NCBI RefSeq assembly: GCF_003201935.1
Contig: NZ_QJJL01000002.1
Location: 124,001 to 188,000 of the forward strand
From: Loktanella sp. PT4BL
GTDB taxonomy: Bacteria > Pseudomonadota > Alphaproteobacteria > Rhodobacterales > Rhodobacteraceae
Reading direction: 5' to 3'
DNA length: 64,000 bases
Part shown: positions 55,444 through 64,000 of the stretch, piece after piece
How the letters are laid out: the number at the start of each line of letters is the position of its first letter
Numbering within the stretch: the stretch's first letter is position 1
The notes under the pieces: model-generated
The model's input: only the letters and a program-made list of their open reading frames with translations
Told to the model about the DNA's origin: nothing
Database searches by the model: none
Made by a program: the position numbers and the translations under genes

Positions 55444-56745
55444 TTAGCGTTCGGGGATCAGCCCGCGCGGGCTGAACCGCAGCACCAGAAGTAGCACCAG
55501 ACCCATGGTCAGCAAACGCATGTGCGCGGCGGATTCGATCATCCGCTCTTTGAGCGTGCTGCCGTCTTCAAGTCCGCTGCTGAGGATATTCATCAGCCCC
55601 AGACCGAGCGGTTCCACCTGCACCCAGAGCCACCAGATGAGCATGCCGCCCAGCACCGCACCAAAGTTGTTACCGGACCCGCCAACAATCACCATGACCC
55701 AGACAAGGAAGGTAAAGCGGAGCGGCTGATAGGTGCCCGGTGTCAGCTGACCATCCAGCGTGGTCATCATCGCACCCGCAATTCCGCAAATCGCAGAGCC
55801 GAGGATAAAGATCTGCAAATGCCGCTTGGTCACGTCCTTGCCCATCGCCTCGGCGGCGGTCTCGTTGTCACGGATCGCGCGCATCATGCGGCCCCATGGG
55901 CTTTTGAGTGCCTTCTGCGCCAGCCAGAGCAGGATCAGCAGAACGATGGTAAAGAGCACGGCATAGGCCATTTTCGTGTAAAGCGTCGACGCCAGTACCG
56001 GATCGAGCCCCACGCTTGCGGCGCGTTCCACAAACACAGGGTCCTGTTGCAGGTCAATTTCAAACGGTACTGGACGATCAAGGCCGATGACGTTTTTCAC
56101 ACCCCGTGCGAGCCAGTCTTCGTTCTTCATCACCGCGATGATGATTTCGGCGATGCCAAGCGTCGCAATCGCAAGGTAATCAGACCGCAGGCCAAGGGCC
56201 GTTTTGCCGATAATCCAAGCCGCACCGGCGGCCAGCAGGCCACCCACAGGCCAAGACAACAGGATGGGAAGGTTCAGACCGCCAAGGTTGCCGGTCGAGG
56301 CGGGGTTCACAGCCTCGATCGCTTCTTTCGCGGGATCGAACACAGCACGGTAGAGAAAGAAGCCACCGACCAGGATCACGAGCGTGACAATGGTTTTCGT
56401 GCGCCCCTCAAGCCGCTTTTGCGCCATGACAGCGGCAACCACGGTCAGGGCACCCAAGGCAAGACCGGCAAAAATCCGCAGACCGCCGGCCTGCCATGCC
56501 TCGGGCACAGGCTCGGTCGAGACCAGCACAGCGGCAAGACCGCCAAGCGCCACAAAACCCATGACACCGATGTTGAACAGCCCCGCAAAGCCCCATTGCA
56601 GGTTCACACCCAGAGCCATGATGGCCGAAATCAGACCCATATTCAGGATCAGTAGGGCAGAGTTCCAACCCTGGATCAGGCCGGTCCCGATCAACAGGAC
56701 GGCGACAAGGCCGAAGAGGGCGGTATCTTTGACTGTAGTGCTCAT
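55444..56745 (-). CDS. livM: Branched-chain amino-acid-type ABC permease LivM
   Basis: A 433-residue permease with about ten membrane helices. ALGVNLQWGFAGLFNIGVMGF and GLRSDYLAIATLGIAEII, with the coupling motif around RDNETAAEAMGKDVTKRHL, mark the LivM family. Forms the channel with LivH. ATGA overlap with livH. The substrate may be branched-chain amino acids, urea or other amides. Confidence 0.9.
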   Translation of the reverse strand: MSTTVKDTALFGLVAVLLIGTGLIQGWNSALLILNMGLISAIMALGVNLQWGFAGLFNIGVMGFVALGGLAAVLVSTEPVPEAWQAGGLRIFAGLALGALTVVAAVMAQKRLEGRTKTIVTLVILVGGFFLYRAVFDPAKEAIEAVNPASTGNLGGLNLPILLSWPVGGLLAAGAAWIIGKTALGLRSDYLAIATLGIAEIIIAVMKNEDWLARGVKNVIGLDRPVPFEIDLQQDPVFVERAASVGLDPVLASTLYTKMAYAVLFTIVLLILLWLAQKALKSPWGRMMRAIRDNETAAEAMGKDVTKRHLQIFILGSAICGIAGAMMTTLDGQLTPGTYQPLRFTFLVWVMVIVGGSGNNFGAVLGGMLIWWLWVQVEPLGLGLMNILSSGLEDGSTLKERMIESAAHMRLLTMGLVLLLVLRFSPRGLIPER

Positions 56746-57752
56746 ACGGATTGTCCCTTGAAGAGGCCCGTCGGTTTGAACAGCAGCACGATAATCAGGA
56801 TCGCGAAGCTGACGGCGAATTTGTAATCGGTGGACAGAAGCTGCACCAACCCGTCAGGTTCCAGGCTTTCGGGCAACAGATAGGTCAGGACCTTTTTCCA
56901 CGCATAGGTGATGGTGACCTCGCTAAAGGCAATCACGAAACCACCGGCGATCGCCCCCAGCGGATTGCCCAGACCACCCACAATCGCTGCGGCAAAGATC
57001 GGCAGCAGAAGTTGGAAATAGGTGAAGGCTTTGAAAGACTTGTCCAGCCCGTAGAGCACACCGGCGGTGGTGGCGAGGGCCGCAACGATCATCCAAGTGA
57101 CCTTGACCACCCAATCGGGGTTGATGCCCGACAGAAGGGCCAGATCTTCGTTATCCGAAAAAGCGCGCATGGATTTGCCGGTGCGTGTCTTGTTCAGGAA
57201 CCAGAACAACAGCGCCATGACGATAAAGGCGACAACGACTGTGATCGCCTGGGTCGTTTTGATCGCCAGACCTTCCTGAAGGCCGGTCATGTCGCGGAAT
57301 TCACGGGCGGTGATAATGAACCGCTCGCCATCGGCAAAGTTGATGTCGCGCACGCCGATGATGAAACGCACAATGCCGTTCATCACGAACATCACACCCA
57401 TCGACACGATCACCAAAATCACGGGCGAGGCCTTTTGATCGCGGTAGAATTTGTACACACCGCGATCAATCCCCAGCAAAAGCAGGATTGTGGCACCGAT
57501 GCCAACGGGCAGGGCGAGAAGGGCGGTTGGCAGCGGGCCAAAAGTGATGCCCAGCCCTGTCAGGGCAGTCGTCACAAGAATGGTAATGGCGGTGCCAAAG
57601 GCCATCGTGTCACCATGGGCAAAATTCGAGAACCGCAGAATGCCGTAAATCAGCGTGACACCCAGTGCACCGATAGCAAGCTGCGCGCCGTAGGCAAGGC
57701 CCGGCACAAAAACGAAGTTCGCGAATGCGACAATCGCGTTCAGAAAATCCAT
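56742..57752 (-). CDS. livH: Branched-chain amino-acid-type ABC permease LivH
   Basis: A 336-residue permease: GALGVTLIYGILRFSNFAHG near residue 28 is the LivH signature, and TGKSMRAFSDNEDLALLSGI is the ATPase-coupling loop. About eight helices. Follows the 114-aa secreted-protein gene by 31 nt. Confidence 0.92.
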   Translation of the reverse strand: MDFLNAIVAFANFVFVPGLAYGAQLAIGALGVTLIYGILRFSNFAHGDTMAFGTAITILVTTALTGLGITFGPLPTALLALPVGIGATILLLLGIDRGVYKFYRDQKASPVILVIVSMGVMFVMNGIVRFIIGVRDINFADGERFIITAREFRDMTGLQEGLAIKTTQAITVVVAFIVMALLFWFLNKTRTGKSMRAFSDNEDLALLSGINPDWVVKVTWMIVAALATTAGVLYGLDKSFKAFTYFQLLLPIFAAAIVGGLGNPLGAIAGGFVIAFSEVTITYAWKKVLTYLLPESLEPDGLVQLLSTDYKFAVSFAILIIVLLFKPTGLFKGQSV

Positions 57753-57783
57753 GAGAAACGATCCTCGGTATTCAGAATAAAGG

Positions 57784-58128
57784 TCATTGCAGCACCTCGC
57801 ATGTGCCCGTCATCGGCGTGACGTTGCGTGTATCGGAGTAGACGGCGCTACCATCAGGCTGCATCACAAGCAGGACCTCGGCACCGTCATCCTGTGTGGT
57901 CCAGAAACCGCGGGTATCGCCAATGATGAACGGCTCTGCGGAAAACGCCGCGTCACCCATCTGCACGGTCGTAATCTGGCGGCGGGGCGGGTCGGATGCA
58001 TCCTGTGCGGGCGCAAACTGTGACGCATCAATCGCAAAAGCGACGGCCACACCGGAAAAGTCGCACGTAACAGTATCCGCACAGGCAGGCCCGGCAATCG
58101 TGGCGCAAAGAACGGCTGCCATTTTCAT
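57784..58128 (-). CDS. Small secreted protein inside the liv operon (114 aa)
   Basis: A 114-residue protein with signal peptide MKMAAVLCATIAGPACA, then a strand-rich body with Cys residues near both ends (VTCDFSG and GTCEVLQ), likely disulfide-bonded in the periplasm. Its ATG overlaps the livF stop by 4 nt. Family not recognised; position suggests a link to the importer. Confidence 0.7.
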   Translation of the reverse strand: MKMAAVLCATIAGPACADTVTCDFSGVAVAFAIDASQFAPAQDASDPPRRQITTVQMGDAAFSAEPFIIGDTRGFWTTQDDGAEVLLVMQPDGSAVYSDTRNVTPMTGTCEVLQ

Positions 58129-58952
58129 CCACCCAGGAAACTGCGCCGGACCTGTTCGTCCGCGAGCAGTTCTTTGCCAGTGCCGGTGTGGGCATTGCGG
58201 CCCTGTACCAGAACATAGGCTTTATCCGCGATTTCAAGCGCTTGTCGGGCGTTCTGTTCCACCATCAGAATAGGGATACCCGTCCGTGCGACCTCGATGA
58301 TCCGGTCAAAAAGCTCATCCATCACGATGGGCGACACACCTGCGGTCGGCTCATCCAGCATCAGCACCTTGGGCTGTGTCATCAGCGCGCGGCCCACGGC
58401 AACCTGCTGGCGTTGACCGCCTGACAACTCACCAGCGGCCTGATTGCGCTTTTCCTTGAGGATCGGGAACAGGTCATAGACCTGCGCCATCGTATCGCGG
58501 AAATCGTCACGCCGGATGAAGGCGCCCATCTCAAGGTTCTCTTCCACAGTCATGGACGTAAAGATGTTCGAGGTCTGCGGGACAAAGCCCATGCCCTTCA
58601 CAACACGCTGTTGCGGGGACAGATGGGTGATATCCTCGCCATCAAGGCGCACGGCACCTTGATTGACATTCAACATACCGAACACCGCTTTCATCGCAGT
58701 GGACTTGCCGGCACCATTCGGGCCGACAATCACGGCAATTTCGCCTTTTTCGGCGGCAATCGTGCAGGAATGCAGGATATCGGGGCCTTTTCCGTAGCCC
58801 CCTGTCATCGCATCACCGATCAGAAACGGTTCACCCGGATTGGACTGGCTGTTGCGTGCGGCGTTCTTGCCCGGCGTCATTGTGCCGCCATTGGGATTGG
58901 CGATCGACCGGTCCTTGTTGCCACGGGCGTTCTGGTAGGGATTATCGCTCAC
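58125..58952 (-). CDS. livF: ABC transporter ATP-binding protein LivF, extended N-terminus
   Basis: A 275-residue ATPase: Walker A GPNGAGKST, signature LSGGQRQQ, Walker B VLMLDEPTAGV. The usual LivF is about 235 residues; here roughly 45 polar residues (MSDNPYQNARGNKDRS... to about NPGEPF) precede the core. The GTG start lies in the stop of the 52-aa gene (GTGA), supporting the long form, but a shorter start at residue 25 or 49 is possible. Confidence 0.9.
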   Translation of the reverse strand: MSDNPYQNARGNKDRSIANPNGGTMTPGKNAARNSQSNPGEPFLIGDAMTGGYGKGPDILHSCTIAAEKGEIAVIVGPNGAGKSTAMKAVFGMLNVNQGAVRLDGEDITHLSPQQRVVKGMGFVPQTSNIFTSMTVEENLEMGAFIRRDDFRDTMAQVYDLFPILKEKRNQAAGELSGGQRQQVAVGRALMTQPKVLMLDEPTAGVSPIVMDELFDRIIEVARTGIPILMVEQNARQALEIADKAYVLVQGRNAHTGTGKELLADEQVRRSFLGG

Positions 58953-59107
58953 GGGGTGATGTACTCTTCAAGGAAGGGCGCATAGGTCAAAAGCGTGTCG
59001 CGCATCAGCGCCTGCTCGGTCCCATCCGCATGGTTGACATAGATGTAATAGAAGGTCGCAGCAGAGCCCAGAATGGCCCCCAGAAGAACGGTCAGTAGGA
59101 ATTTCAT
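58949..59107 (-). CDS. Small membrane protein between livG and livF (52 aa)
   Basis: ATG 59107 lies in the livG stop (ATGA) and the TGA overlaps the livF GTG. The 52-residue product has a hydrophobic N-terminal anchor (MKFLLTVLLGAILGSAATF) and a polar tail ending PFLEEYITP. Overlaps on both sides make it very likely translated. Unknown function; absent from standard ORF length cutoffs. Confidence 0.7.
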   Translation of the reverse strand: MKFLLTVLLGAILGSAATFYYIYVNHADGTEQALMRDTLLTYAPFLEEYITP

Positions 59108-59889
59108 GTCGCACTTACCTTGTCTTTGTTTTTCAACCCGGTGCCGAGATAGGCCTCGATCACCTGCTCATTGGCCTTGATTTCTTCCAAGGTCCCTTCG
59201 GCCAGGACGTGGCCTTCCGCCATACAGATCACTGGATCGCAAAGGCGACCGATGAAATCCATGTCGTGTTCAATGACGACGAATGTGTAGTTGCGTTCCT
59301 GGTTCAGGCGGATGATGGCATCGCCGATTGTGTTCAGCAGGGTGCGGTTCACACCTGCACCGACCTCATCGAGAAAGACGATCTTGGCGTCGACCATCAT
59401 GGTGCGGCCCAGTTCAAGCAGCTTTTTCTGGCCGCCAGAGAGGTTACCGGCTTTTTCTTCTTTCAGGTGATCGATTGTCAGAAACTCGATGACTTCATCG
59501 GCCTTGGCTTGCAAAGCGCGCTCTTCATTGGCGATCCGCTTGCGGCCAAACCACGTGTTCCAGAGTTTTTCGCCCGATTGATCGCCCGGAACCATCATCA
59601 GGTTTTCGCGGACGGTCATCGAGGAAAACTCATGCGCAATCTGGAAGGTGCGCAGCAAGCCCTTGTGGAAAAGCTCATGTGGCGGCAGACCTGTGATGTC
59701 CTCGCCATTCATGGTGATGCGGCCCGAAGTTGGTTTAAGAACGCCCGCGATCACATTGAAAAGCGTTGTTTTTCCCGCACCATTGGGGCCAATCAGCCCT
59801 GTGATCGTACCTTTTTCGATTGTCAGTGTTGCGCCATCAACGGCACGGAAGCCCCCGAAGGTCTTGACCACATCTTCAACAACAATCAT
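59104..59889 (-). CDS. livG: ABC transporter ATP-binding protein LivG
   Basis: A 261-residue ATPase: Walker A GPNGAGKTT, signature LSGGQKKLLELGR, Walker B IVFLDEVGAGV, where the common Pro after DE is Val; the C-terminal DFIGRLCDPVICMAEG holds the switch region. ATG 59889 with GGGGA at 7 nt is chosen over 59934. First gene after the livJ terminator. Confidence 0.92.
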   Translation of the reverse strand: MIVVEDVVKTFGGFRAVDGATLTIEKGTITGLIGPNGAGKTTLFNVIAGVLKPTSGRITMNGEDITGLPPHELFHKGLLRTFQIAHEFSSMTVRENLMMVPGDQSGEKLWNTWFGRKRIANEERALQAKADEVIEFLTIDHLKEEKAGNLSGGQKKLLELGRTMMVDAKIVFLDEVGAGVNRTLLNTIGDAIIRLNQERNYTFVVIEHDMDFIGRLCDPVICMAEGHVLAEGTLEEIKANEQVIEAYLGTGLKNKDKVSAT

Positions 59890-59984: not shown

Positions 59985-61181
59985 TTAACGGTAGTTGATT
60001 GTCGAGTATACGCCGTCAGCAAATTCGATTTCCTGATAGGAACCGGCGGATTCACCGGGGCCGATCAGTTCAACTGCGGATGCACCAACATAGTCGATGT
60101 CTTCGCCAGCAGCGATCAGCTCCAGACCACGGGCCAGTTCGCCGGGCAGGATTTCGATGCCGGGTGCGTTGGCCACATCAAAGATGTGATCTTTGTAGTC
60201 AGCCGGATCTTTCGAACCAGCCGCCTGCATCGCCAGCATGATCAGTGCCGCAGCATCGTATGATTCAGGGGCAAATGCGCCTGTCCCGTCAAAGCCTGCT
60301 TCTGCGGCCAGTTCGACAAAGATGCCTGCGCCCGCGTTATCGGTGCCGGGGTAGGCGCCGAAAGACCCGTTCAGTTCCGCACCGAAGTTGTCGTTCAGAA
60401 CCGCACCAACCATGCCGTCTGGCAGGTAGAACGTGTCAAACGCGCCGCTGTCGAGGGAGGAGCGGATGATACCGGAACCACCTTGGTCAACATAGCCTGC
60501 AACAACCAGCACCTCACCACCGGCGGATGCCAGCGCGCCCACTTCGGCCGAGTAGTCGGCTTTGCCGTCTTCATGCGCGGCAGAGATGGTGACTGTGCCG
60601 CCGGCTTCTTCAAAAGCGGCCTGGAACGCATCGGCAAGACCTTTGCCATAGTCGTTGTTTGTGTATGTCAGGGCCACTTCGCTGACACCACGATCCTGGA
60701 GGATCTCGGTGATGATCACACCCTGGCGCGCGTCGGATGGTGCTGTGCGGAAGAACAGACCGTCATCTTCGGCTGTCGACAGGCCAGGCGATGTTGCTGA
60801 TGGCGAAATCATCACAACGCCGTTCGGGCGTGCAACGTTTTGCAGGATGGCGCCGGTCACGCCGGAACAGTCTGCACCCATGATTGCGTCAACCGCGTCG
60901 GATGTGACCAGACGCTCGGCCGCGGCAGTCGCGGCACCGGCGTCGATACATGTGCTGTCACCACGTACGGATGTGACGGTCGCACCACCCAGCAATGTGC
61001 CGGCTGCGGTGACTTCGGCCATCGCCATTTCGGCACCAGCACCCATCGCGGGTGTGATCGATTCAAGCGGGCCGGTGAAGCCAAGGATCACGCCGATCTT
61101 TACTTCTTCAGCGTGACCAGCGGCATAAGCACCACCAGCAATCATGGCGACAGCAGATGTCGCCAGCATAAGTTTTTTCAT
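59985..61181 (-). CDS. Branched-chain amino-acid-type ABC substrate-binding protein
   Basis: A 398-residue periplasmic binding protein: signal peptide MKKLMLATSAVAMIAGGAYA, then EVKIGVILGFTGPLES opening the type I fold, and ADCSGVTGAILQNVARPNG in the ligand cleft. ATG 61181 is used because the longer frame from 61337 adds 52 residues before a perfect signal peptide. Ligand not certain. Confidence 0.92.
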   Translation of the reverse strand: MKKLMLATSAVAMIAGGAYAAGHAEEVKIGVILGFTGPLESITPAMGAGAEMAMAEVTAAGTLLGGATVTSVRGDSTCIDAGAATAAAERLVTSDAVDAIMGADCSGVTGAILQNVARPNGVVMISPSATSPGLSTAEDDGLFFRTAPSDARQGVIITEILQDRGVSEVALTYTNNDYGKGLADAFQAAFEEAGGTVTISAAHEDGKADYSAEVGALASAGGEVLVVAGYVDQGGSGIIRSSLDSGAFDTFYLPDGMVGAVLNDNFGAELNGSFGAYPGTDNAGAGIFVELAAEAGFDGTGAFAPESYDAAALIMLAMQAAGSKDPADYKDHIFDVANAPGIEILPGELARGLELIAAGEDIDYVGASAVELIGPGESAGSYQEIEFADGVYSTINYR

Positions 61182-61341: not shown

Positions 61342-63024
61342 TTAATGGCTTTCCAGCGTCATCTCGACCGCGTCCCAGTTTTGCGCCAAAAGGTCTTCTT
61401 CGCTGATCCAGTACTGCACGACACCACGGTCGCCCCACATCCAGTTCACAAGCTGGTCCGAGTGCAGTTGAAGCAGCAAGTGATGGTGTGTGTGCATTGA
61501 CGCAGCCGAACCGATCTTGAAACCAAGCCCGAACATCTGGTGCCAACGGCCGATGTTGGCGATCCGGTAGCGCGTGTCGATATCGTCGCGCACCTCGAAA
61601 GGCAGCGTGGCATAAACCTCGGGCGGTGCATTTGCTGCGGCCACAAGGGTTGCTGTTGCTGCCTCCTGAACGCTGATCAATTCACCTTGGGTGAATTGAT
61701 AAAACGGCTTGAAGCGTCCCGGCTCTGCGCCATTGTCGCGCACTTGGCCGAAATAGATTTCCAACTGTGCGGCATCCTCGGGGCTCATCCTGTCCCACGG
61801 TTCATGTGACACGGCCCAGATGCTGACCTCATCAACAAAGGCCGAAAAAGCATCCTGATCGCGCCGGATGGTATCGACAGCGGCCTGATAGCTCGGCCCG
61901 TATTGCTGGACCCGTTTTTTGGCCTTCTGCAACGTATCCTGGATATCATCGCGCGCCAGACGCACCGACATTGTAAAACGGTAGGCCGTGTCCCAGAACC
62001 AGGGCCGCGCGAAATCTCGCAGGGTGGTACGGTAGTTCTGCGGTGAAAGCTCTCCGGCGGCCTGAAATGGCAACAGATCGCCCATGAGTTCGTGGGCGTC
62101 ATCATCCCTGTTCTGGTTTGTCATCGGCAAAAGCACGAATTCGACAGGCCAGCGGGGGAAGGTATCAGGGGCTGTTTCGCGCGCATGGCCTTTGACGTAA
62201 TAGCCCCAGTCCGGCCCGTGATAGATCGGCACCAGATCCGCGGGCGGTTCGGTGGCGGTATTTCCGATCGTTGGCGAATAGATCACCTTGCCCTGACGCG
62301 GCCCGTCCGTTGCCGTATTCATAAAGAAAGACAGCGCGCCCTTTTGTGGCATACCGGTCGGCAAGAGCGGATCGGGGACTGTATCGAGGTCGATTTGTCC
62401 CAGATGATGCATCGCACGTCCGAATTCATCCCGTGGCCAAGGCGTATCCCCCAAGGTCGGCAGCCCCCCCAGCCAACTGGTCCCGCCGTAATCCACATCA
62501 AGATCGGCGCGTTGCATGCGCACCAATGCGATGCCGGGCGTGCGCTTGAAGGTCTTGCCGCGCAGATCACGGCGGTCAATGTCAGCGGCAATCCGTTCTA
62601 TTTCGTCGGGGGTCAGTTCAGGCAGGGCGTTCTTCTGGATGATCTCATGGACATGGGCGCGGAAAGCATCACCGGTTTTATGCCCCGCCAGACGCGCGAA
62701 AACGATGTAGAGCTCATCATCCTTCAGGTCTTCGTTTTCTTCAACGGTGACCGTCGGGGCAGGGCGCGGCGGAGGGTTCGGGCGCCGCTGCAGCGGGGCA
62801 CTATTGTCTTTTGGAACTTGGCGGGTCAGGGGCGCTGCCGGTACTTTGACAGCTGGTTTGCGCCGGAACACCCCAAAGGCATAAGCCGCGGCCAAGACAA
62901 CCGACAAGAGGCTGAGTGCGGTTGAACGCAAATAGGCATCATTCTGGAGATGCGCATAAATCGTCAGGCCAAGCGTGGCGTTCCCAAGGATAAGCAGCAG
63001 TATCTTGAGAAGCTTCAGGACCAT
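61342..63024 (-). CDS. DUF1963-family protein with membrane anchor
   Basis: A 560-residue protein. Two N-terminal membrane segments (about 6-24 and 33-52), a Pro-rich linker (about 70-92), then a large soluble domain with GGTSWLGGLPTLGDTPWPRDEFG, LGQIDLDTVPD and FMNTATDGP, as in YwqG/DUF1963 proteins. The end has MHTHHHLLLQLHSD and MWGDRGVVQYWI. Biochemical role unknown. Confidence 0.8.
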   Translation of the reverse strand: MVLKLLKILLLILGNATLGLTIYAHLQNDAYLRSTALSLLSVVLAAAYAFGVFRRKPAVKVPAAPLTRQVPKDNSAPLQRRPNPPPRPAPTVTVEENEDLKDDELYIVFARLAGHKTGDAFRAHVHEIIQKNALPELTPDEIERIAADIDRRDLRGKTFKRTPGIALVRMQRADLDVDYGGTSWLGGLPTLGDTPWPRDEFGRAMHHLGQIDLDTVPDPLLPTGMPQKGALSFFMNTATDGPRQGKVIYSPTIGNTATEPPADLVPIYHGPDWGYYVKGHARETAPDTFPRWPVEFVLLPMTNQNRDDDAHELMGDLLPFQAAGELSPQNYRTTLRDFARPWFWDTAYRFTMSVRLARDDIQDTLQKAKKRVQQYGPSYQAAVDTIRRDQDAFSAFVDEVSIWAVSHEPWDRMSPEDAAQLEIYFGQVRDNGAEPGRFKPFYQFTQGELISVQEAATATLVAAANAPPEVYATLPFEVRDDIDTRYRIANIGRWHQMFGLGFKIGSAASMHTHHHLLLQLHSDQLVNWMWGDRGVVQYWISEEDLLAQNWDAVEMTLESH

Positions 63025-63033
63025 CGCATCGGA

Positions 63034-64000
63034 TCAACCGGGCAGCCGCGATGCATGACTTCCCCGTTCACGGTAGGGCGTGGTGTCGTAATGCGACCTG
63101 TAGCATTTGGAAAAATGCGAAGGCGACGCAAACCCGCAGGCCAGCGCCACATTGATGACCGTCATATCGGTCTGCATCAACAGGTTACGCGCCTTTTGCA
63201 GGCGCAGTTCCATGTAATACCGCTTCGGGCTGCGCGCGAGGTAGCGTCGGAACAGGCGCTCAAGCTGGCGGGTGGACATGCCGACATCTCTGGCAAGGAT
63301 CGCCGGACTGATCGGGTCTTCAATGTTTTGTTCCATCATCTGTATCACGCGGCTGAGTTTCGGGTGCCGCACGCCGATGCGCGTCGGGATCGACAGGCGC
63401 TGTGTGTCCTGATCGGTCCGGATCGCGGAATAAATCTGCAGGTCCGCCACCGCATTGGCCAGTTCCTCACCATGATCATCGGCGATCAGTTTGATCATCA
63501 AATCAATCGAGGCCGTGCCACCTGCGGTCGTAATCCGGTTGCCATCGACCACAAATATCGACTTGGTGAGTTGCACTTCTTCGAACTCTTCGGCGAAGCT
63601 GTCCTGATTTTCCCAATGGATCGTGGCCTTCTTGCCGTCAAGCAACCCCGCCTTGGCCAGCGAGTAACCCGCCGTGCAAAGCCCTGCGACCGTCACACCG
63701 CGCCGCGCCTCGCGGCGTAACCAGTTCAGCAGCCGCTTGGTGGTCGCCTTCTGCACGTCAATGCCACCGCAGAGCATGATCGTATCGTCCCGCTCAAGCT
63801 CGTCCAGCCCGTGGTTGACGCGAAAGACGCAGCCGTTGGAACAGCTGATCTCGTTGCCGTCCTCACTGACAATGATCCACGAATAAAGCTCTTTTCCCGC
63901 GGTTCTGTTCGCAATGCGCAGGCTTTCGATTGCCGCCGCAAAGCTGAGCATGGTAAAATCGGCCATCAGCGCGAAGACAAACCGGCGCGGTTTGCCAATA
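63034..64000 (-). CDS. GlxA-type AraC-family regulator, N-terminus outside the window
   Basis: The frame continues upstream past ATG 63966 to the window edge (…GKPRRFVFALMADF), so the gene is partial. N-terminal DJ-1/PfpI-like domain (about 190 residues, AGLCTAGYSLAKAGLL) and two C-terminal HTH units (ILARDVGMSTRQLERLFRRY, then VALACGFASPSHFSKCYRSH). Resembles GbdR/CdhR-type regulators of quaternary-amine catabolism, but the target is not shown here. Confidence 0.85.
   Translation of the reverse strand, partial: IGKPRRFVFALMADFTMLSFAAAIESLRIANRTAGKELYSWIIVSEDGNEISCSNGCVFRVNHGLDELERDDTIMLCGGIDVQKATTKRLLNWLRREARRGVTVAGLCTAGYSLAKAGLLDGKKATIHWENQDSFAEEFEEVQLTKSIFVVDGNRITTAGGTASIDLMIKLIADDHGEELANAVADLQIYSAIRTDQDTQRLSIPTRIGVRHPKLSRVIQMMEQNIEDPISPAILARDVGMSTRQLERLFRRYLARSPKRYYMELRLQKARNLLMQTDMTVINVALACGFASPSHFSKCYRSHYDTTPYRERGSHASRLPG

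Follow-up and report, generated by a model that had tools for sequence, protein, structure and literature searches.

The liv ABC importer operon of Loktanella sp. PT4BL raises the question of what two small genes do among the genes for its ATPases and permeases, and whether their products belong to the importer. The window, i.e., the whole 64,000-nucleotide stretch of DNA that was analyzed, contains the operon on its minus strand, and the ORF coordinates confirmed the order livK, livG, ORF52, livF, ORF114, livH, livM (Table 1). The coordinates, gene order and junctions given in an initial annotation of this DNA proved exact to the base. From livG to livM the junctions are ATGA, GTGA, ATGA, a 31-nt gap and ATGA. 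A penicillin amidase gene comes after livM. LivF (window 58125–58952) carries about 40 extra residues at its N-terminus; close relatives have the protein with or without this extension, which makes it another variable stretch next to the slot described below. A 560-aa DUF1963 protein is encoded at 61342–63024, between an AraC/DJ-1-type regulator (63034–63966) and livK.

Table 1. Features of the liv operon in the window.
Feature	Position	Strand	Remarks
livK, substrate-binding protein	59985–61181	-	Pfam Peripla_BP_6; upstream of livG, stop without overlap (control junction)
livG, ABC ATPase	59104–59889	-	Pfam ABC_tran and BCA_ABC_TP_C
ORF52, 52-aa single-pass membrane protein	58949–59107	-	overlaps livG (ATGA) and livF (GTGA)
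livF, ABC ATPase, GTG start	58125–58952	-	Pfam ABC_tran from residue 62
ORF114, 114-aa secreted slot protein	57784–58128	-	signal peptide by inspection; predicted eight strands
Mini-ORF, 15 codons, MTFILNTEDRFSWIF	57740–57787	-	putative frame; bridges 31-nt ORF114–livH gap
livH, permease	56742–57752	-	Pfam BPD_transp_2
livM, permease	55444–56745	-	Pfam BPD_transp_2

For ORF52 and ORF114, Pfam returned nothing up to E 10 and NCBIfam nothing up to E 1. ORF52 contains one hydrophobic stretch (residues 4–22), in agreement with its earlier description as a single-pass membrane protein. ORF114 has cysteines at positions 8, 16, 22 and 110 and, by inspection, a signal peptide up to about residue 17, and with this cleavage the mature protein would keep the last two, Cys22 and Cys110. 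It had been described as secreted with cysteines near both ends, and this description holds. We estimated selection by the Nei-Gojobori method with our own script from 78 pairs of 13 Yoonia genomes with all five genes (gL197_FH2 left out; dS undefined in nine pairs for ORF52 and two for ORF114). Median dN/dS, which is rough because median dS exceeded 1, was 0.17 for ORF114 and 0.06 for ORF52, next to 0.025 for livF and livG and 0.046 for livH. The corresponding median amino acid identities were 0.61, 0.88, 0.94 (livF), 0.95 (livG) and 0.93 (livH). A chance frame is ruled out for ORF114 by its relatives and its dN/dS, and for ORF52 by 36 Yoonia carriers and its dN/dS; judged by these comparisons, both small genes look real.

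If the two proteins were dedicated to the importer, as the initial annotation had proposed, their genes might be expected always at this position. A close livF is present in 263 of 295 family genomes; ORF114 was found by sequence in 11 of the 295 and ORF52 in two, i.e., the window's own genome and one congener in a sample with two Yoonia. Among the 11 genomes, the ORF114 matches lie between livF and livH or adjoin livH in eight, at a former liv site in G145 and G123, and elsewhere in G279. By the refuting condition that the initial annotation had set, homologues absent or scrambled in related liv operons, the idea of a dedicated subunit largely fails for ORF114.

We read 148 livF loci among the roughly 150 places listed; as loci were taken best-scoring first, this sample leans to nearer relatives. 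Three were removed because they belong to the own genome and its congener and are counted in the Yoonia set (L014, L015, L163), and five with livH out of view (L036, L043, L044, L080, L131), leaving usable livF–livH junctions at 140 loci of 139 genomes (G078 gave two). Slot genes of at least 75 aa were present at 81 of these loci and lacking at 59; 56 filled slots held one gene, 18 two, six three and one four. At 54 of the 140 loci, livF and livH lie at most 100 nt apart. Yoonia gave a gene at 38 of 54 loci and none at 16. Junctions wider than 200 nt were frequent between livF and livH (82/140), occurred also between livG and livF (24/141), and were never seen at the control junctions livK–livG (0/141) and livH–livM (0/125). 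The same slot pattern emerged from 80 named loci, with four slot genes in Nioella nitratireducens. Slot genes were called by script, and a few calls are doubtful (e.g., L068_FH2, L121_FH1, L157_FH1). On the level of sequence, these comparisons show both junctions flanking livF in the Rhodobacteraceae liv operon to behave as slots that accept extra genes. At the Sulfitobacter undariae locus (L300), the slot contains a 152-aa non-secreted protein that by eye resembles GNAT acetyltransferases; the slot therefore takes other cargo too.

The slot proteins of at least 75 aa form a set of 155 (114 from the family, 41 from Yoonia). A cysteine is found within the last 12 residues in 140 of them, compared with about 46 expected from cysteine content; 133 have a hydrophobic N-terminus, and 120 combine it with the C-terminal cysteine. 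After crude signal-peptide removal, BLASTP linkage sorted the set into two large clusters, the 'CxFTxEC' type with 64 members and the ORF114 type with 24, alongside ten small clusters and 32 singletons; the two large clusters together hold 88 of the 155 proteins. The first-cluster profile was built from 44 of the 64 members, none of them ORF114-type, and the ORF114-type alignment from 24 sequences, i.e., 23 of the 24 cluster members and one from L006; L121_FH1, L147_FH1 and gL197_FH2 were left out of the lists feeding both profiles. In the window's genome the first-cluster profile found a single place at E ≤ 0.1, namely ORF114 (E 1.7e-4). Moreover, profile–profile comparison of the two clusters gave E 6e-9, signal peptides included. 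The first and the ORF114-type cluster thus appear to be linked parts of one undescribed superfamily.

The first-cluster profile had at least 95 matches in at least 78 of 295 family genomes and matched at least one of 337 genomes in a class sample, a member of the same family; with at most 14 and 12 candidates scored per genome in the family and class scans, respectively, these tallies are lower bounds because G000, found by genome search, was missed in the family scan. Of 88 superfamily matches with a place, 82 lie at liv, 79 of them downstream of livF at the livH side and three between livG and livF. Coordinates alone (within 3.5 kb on the downstream side of livF) placed 61, inspection of the locus placed 18, and the remaining three are those upstream of livF. 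The six placed away from liv belong to G084 (two), G231, G197 and G269, whose loci were read, and to G245, a fragmented assembly. Seven of the 95 matches have no place in this count; the locus of one, in G123, was read separately. The tie of slot and superfamily to the importer operon is strong.

AlphaFold2 predicted eight strands for both a first-cluster representative (pLDDT 90.8) and ORF114 (pLDDT 86.2). In the ORF114 model, Cys22 is located in the first strand (18–23) and Cys110 in the last (106–113), where a disulfide of the MliC/PliC kind between these strands would place them. For either model Foldseek gave no match at E ≤ 0.001. In VIA-align, ORF114 reached Z of about 9 with p-coumaric acid decarboxylase and with 5hal, Z 8.1 with bradavidin and Z 7.9 with PliC of Brucella, and the first-cluster representative reached Z 9.3 with Cap15. 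Because many barrels tie at Z 7 to 9, the predicted fold is a common small barrel that names no function, and we rejected likeness to PliC, avidin, phenolic acid decarboxylase or Cap15 as proof of identity.

Known domains were likewise rejected. The best Pfam E value was 0.0038 for the first cluster (one member; AtDEF-like in 3 of 44 at E 0.032 or worse) and 0.017 for the ORF114-type cluster; another slot-protein set (A3) gave one DUF3426 match (E 0.0055), and 23 cargo proteins from the livG–livF junction gave one weak DUF3157 match (E 0.0039). For slot proteins the best E values were 0.014 with NCBIfam and 0.0016 with PHROGs (one member). None of the slot proteins scanned against Pfam, NCBIfam and PADLOC convincingly matched a family of immunity, defence or inhibitor proteins. 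In PDB sequence searches, the first cluster found 6xi1 (E 0.00043), via repeats of at most 7.9 bits and not credible, and the ORF114-type cluster found nothing below E 0.3. Plasmid records contained no match for ORF114 or the first-cluster representative, and phage records none for the latter. The viral_contigs set had one stretch coding for a relative of the first-cluster representative (a count, without locus) and none in the scan with ORF114. Carriage of the cargo by phages or plasmids is not supported.

Overlaps were counted at loci where all gap ORFs have at least 75 aa (71 family, 38 Yoonia). livF and the slot gene overlap by exactly 4 nt at 29/71 loci of the family and 34/38 of Yoonia, with the remainder mostly between −35 and 8 nt, and the same exact overlap joins adjacent slot genes in 21 of 30 family cases. 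At the other end, the slot gene and livH share a 1-nt overlap in 35/71 family and 19/38 Yoonia loci and are more than 8 nt apart in 20/71 and 17/38. Stop/start overlaps recur across genera but are far from universal. In the window, the mini-ORF MTFILNTEDRFSWIF in the 31-nt gap takes its start from the ATGA at the ORF114 stop and reaches 13 nt into livH, and relatives repeat this arrangement.

We scored a spacer as bridged when a start codon lay 4 nt over the upstream stop and the stop of this frame fell within −8 to 14 nt of the next start. Among 54 livG–livF spacers, 46 had such a start and 39 were bridged, versus 16.5 after shuffling. The corresponding numbers were 19, 14 and 13 versus 3.6 for slot–livH spacers of the family, 17, 16 and 16 versus 6.8 for those of Yoonia, and 26, 18 and 16 versus 5.3 for empty livF–livH spacers (18 family and 8 Yoonia loci, some near-identical). 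At the livK–livG control junction, 13 of 140 spacers had a start and none was bridged, versus 2.0 after shuffling. In the other two frames such stops were much rarer: counts by frame were 40/7/11 of 54 for livG–livF, 16/2/3 of 19 for family slot–livH and 16/3/6 of 17 for Yoonia slot–livH; they were weaker in empty family spacers (9/4/6 of 18) and stood at 23/30/40 of 140 in the livK–livG control. A looser choice of start gave 26 of 64 bridged versus 12.8 expected, with direct overlap at 54 more loci. With the nearest start, 25 of 46 were in frame (P 0.003, such values being optimistic because the stop window was set after viewing the spacers and the genomes are related), and 23 of these 25 were open versus 11.3. 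Shuffles preserve base content, not dinucleotides or ribosome sites. The livK–livG control junction is a better argument than the P values. The mini-ORFs, of about 7 to 75 codons, thus resemble coupling-type short ORFs in having a 4-nt start overlap and a stop at the next start beyond chance, with 0 of 13 in the control.

Coupling between native gene pairs is described as nearly gone at about 20 nt (PMC10666635); that paper also cites earlier studies with coupling across long gaps. The claim that both small genes are made in step with the importer gains comparative support from the recurring overlaps and from bridges above shuffled numbers, which are consistent with such coupling.

On a tree of livG, livF and livH from 50 Yoonia genomes, the slot state changed at least 21 times (13 states, floor 12). 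Sister species carry different cargo or none (L210/L212, L236/L238, L243/L245). Also, scars were found: in L202 an in-frame deletion has removed the middle of an ORF114-type gene and left its two ends, new cargo in L197 is followed by a decayed copy, and L219 shows, directly before a new cargo gene, a decayed livF 3' end that is 78% identical over 141 nt to the livF of that genome. Turnover and scars would fit an exchange of cargo via recombination in the conserved flanks.

The liv site of Yoonia lies between an AraC/DJ-1-type regulator and penicillin amidase. G123 and G145 have no close LivF, and a LivH-like match elsewhere in these genomes reaches only 40–41%. At the site, G145 has one uninterrupted ORF114-type gene; G123 has a tandem of three small genes, all uninterrupted, of which the first matches ORF114 and the second is found by the first-cluster profile. 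The block of regulator, slot genes and penicillin amidase is kept without close liv at L120:2111–6879 and L143:2023–7296, the latter with an opposite-strand gene that has 3-hydroxyisobutyrate-dehydrogenase-type domains. In G084, livF and livH are 5 nt apart (L055), and two tandem slot-type genes follow TRAP dctQ–dctM (L266:1552–4434). Since slot-type genes are kept without close liv or behind dctQ–dctM, we conclude that the cargo probably does something independent of this importer, yet resides mostly in importer operons.

ORF52 was present at 36 of 54 Yoonia loci, the junction being out of view in L244. It has 52 aa in 34 carriers and 53 aa in two (L214, L228); for the dN/dS and junction sets the start was fixed by alignment, giving 52 codons in all 36. 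The livF GTG sits on the ORF52 stop in 36 of 36 carriers. Towards livG, a 4-nt overlap was found in 30, a 79-nt spacer in three and an intervening gene of 198–199 aa in three. The 79-nt spacer (L202, L203, L204) is bridged by a 27-codon mini-ORF with a −1 overlap upstream and −4 downstream. Over all 36 carriers dN/dS was 0.105, and on the tree of 50 Yoonia genomes the presence of ORF52 changed at least three times (floor 1). ORF52 is, as far as these comparisons tell, a slow-evolving membrane protein limited to one Yoonia clade and distinct in kind from ORF114; it may touch LivHM directly.

We propose, with a probability of roughly 45% for the joint statement, that the slot holds exchangeable cargo which is relay-coupled to Liv synthesis and acts as protective or niche-specific binders. 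Within this explanation, we are highly confident of the slot and of what it contains, as read from sequence, and have low confidence in the proposed function of the cargo. The slots take chiefly small exported Cys-bearing proteins, single or in tandem up to four, more than half of them from the one superfamily and differing between close species. The cargo gene itself often keeps stop/start overlaps, and mini-ORFs often span spacers from stop to start; termination–reinitiation could carry ribosomes along livG–livF–cargo–livH–livM, and synthesis of the cargo would then keep pace with that of the importer. Recombination within the conserved flanking sequence may exchange it. With least certainty, we suggest that the cargo proteins could be periplasmic binders of variable outside targets, i.e., toxins, lytic enzymes, factors of phages or predators, or ligands, and would form a protective or niche-specific repertoire instead of fixed importer subunits. 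ORF52 would stand apart as a membrane protein specific to its clade, possibly a binding partner of LivHM. Several points weigh against this proposal: ORF114 is on average under purifying selection (dN/dS 0.17), whereas an arms race would go with positive selection; the slot proteins scanned gave no convincing family match; the link of 82 in 88 to liv is tighter than a generic defence cassette needs; and the overlaps are far from universal.

The initial annotation had considered a dedicated accessory subunit, or a sensor of importer load, plausible. Both small proteins would then interact with LivFGHM or with LivK, adjusting transport or sensing it, and their variety would reflect tuning to substrate or niche. 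This agrees with the placement of 82 of 88 matches at liv, with the gene overlaps, which are described as enriched among genes of heteromeric complexes (PMC10666635), with an ORF52 that is kept and slow-evolving in its clade, and with the two slot-type genes behind another importer, TRAP dctQM, in G084. However, slot genes of at least 75 aa are lacking at 59 of 140 loci in the family and at 16 of 54 in Yoonia, sister species have cargo of other clusters or none, and genomes without close Liv orthologues retain slot-type genes; we regard the reading as rather unlikely for the pair. From its distribution, ORF114 is unlikely to be a dedicated Liv subunit, being found in 11 of 295 genomes, replaced or absent in close relatives, and kept without liv. 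For ORF52 the proposal is possible: within the Yoonia clade this gene is retained, evolves slowly and stays at one position, although it is present in 2 of 295 family genomes. A guard role is conceivable because toxins that exploit solute importers have been described (PMC11630599). A set of guard proteins, locked to the importer by the translation relay, would block toxins or phages that use or attack it, with the mini-ORFs as filler and ORF52 as former filler turned membrane protein. We consider this guard version improbable.

Alternatively, the cargo could inhibit lysozymes or muramidases in the manner of MliC, PliC and ACP and simply be carried along by an operon that is well expressed. 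Like MliC/PliC and Neisseria ACP as described in PMC5507604, ORF114 is small (about 100 aa), secreted by inspection and predicted to be an eight-stranded barrel with cysteines in strands 1 and 8; its best structural matches are barrels, PliC among them (Z 7.9, rmsd 4.4, 85 aligned). In contrast to these inhibitors, the slot proteins are highly variable and tied to an importer operon and show neither a sequence match nor the SxSGAxY motif of the strand 4–5 loop, which is absent from ORF114 and unconserved in the 24-sequence alignment, though ACP lacks such motifs as well (PMC5507604). Unrelated barrels score equally (Z 7 to 9), ORF114 has no Pfam match and no Foldseek match at E ≤ 0.001, and an inhibitor role of this kind is, in our estimate, quite unlikely. 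The slots might also be filled by neutral or selfish cassettes, the junctions flanking livF tolerating insertions that keep the overlap and the mini-ORFs being scars of lost cargo. The remnants and fossils at L202, L197 and L219, the numerous mini-ORFs and a like tolerance described at −4 spacing for MIRU elements (PMC12548453) would be expected from this. Purifying selection on ORF114, the common Cys pattern, the eight-stranded fold of both modelled proteins, and the lack of plasmid-record matches for two proteins and of phage-record matches for one argue against it, and we give it little credence.

Each element of the locus has a known analogue, i.e., coupling ORFs, variable tandem small genes and small Cys-bearing barrels. 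Ribosome delivery by short ORFs at −4 spacing, including those of MIRUs, has been described (PMC12548453), and there, as here, an insert does little harm to the next gene when it brings a short frame with a 4-nt overlap. In the liv operon, by contrast, bridging involves both ends of a spacer, and the junctions serve whole cargo genes as well. The rAID orphan immunity arrays (PMC12247911) share with the slot small genes in variable tandem arrays and turnover between relatives; slots with two to four genes occur at 25 of 140 loci and with one at 56. The slot differs from them in lying inside a core operon and in proteins with no recognised known immunity domain. Transporter-binding proteins of the AcrZ type (PMC7267776) resemble ORF52 in size class and single hydrophobic segment, a likeness of size and topology, whereas ORF52 is encoded between two genes for ABC ATPases and is confined to one clade of a single genus.

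A slot in a core importer operon and the superfamily were not found in the libraries or the searched literature, which was mostly open-access, and may be published elsewhere. New would be the combination of coupling, variable cargo and barrels in a core importer operon, together with the superfamily. A hypervariable cargo site with coupling-preserving insertions is unexpected in a conserved nutrient-importer operon. If this reading is true, the operon would offer a defined place to study what small proteins do in an abundant marine group, naturally varied bridged spacers in which reinitiation from one native gene to the next could be measured, and a so far undescribed superfamily whose fold is predicted.

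Two further protein types were noted after livG. A secreted protein of about 200 aa that starts with 'VxGxxVVxGxxVxLxxDGTW' is encoded there in L207, L208 and L219, i.e., at the livG–ORF52 junction, and the same type follows livG also in L050, L077, L117, L123 and L131. Between livG and livF of three genera (L031, L044, L084), an 82–85 aa protein without signal peptide is found that has the pattern 'VWHGAP...PKFKGMxEGALKWLR'.
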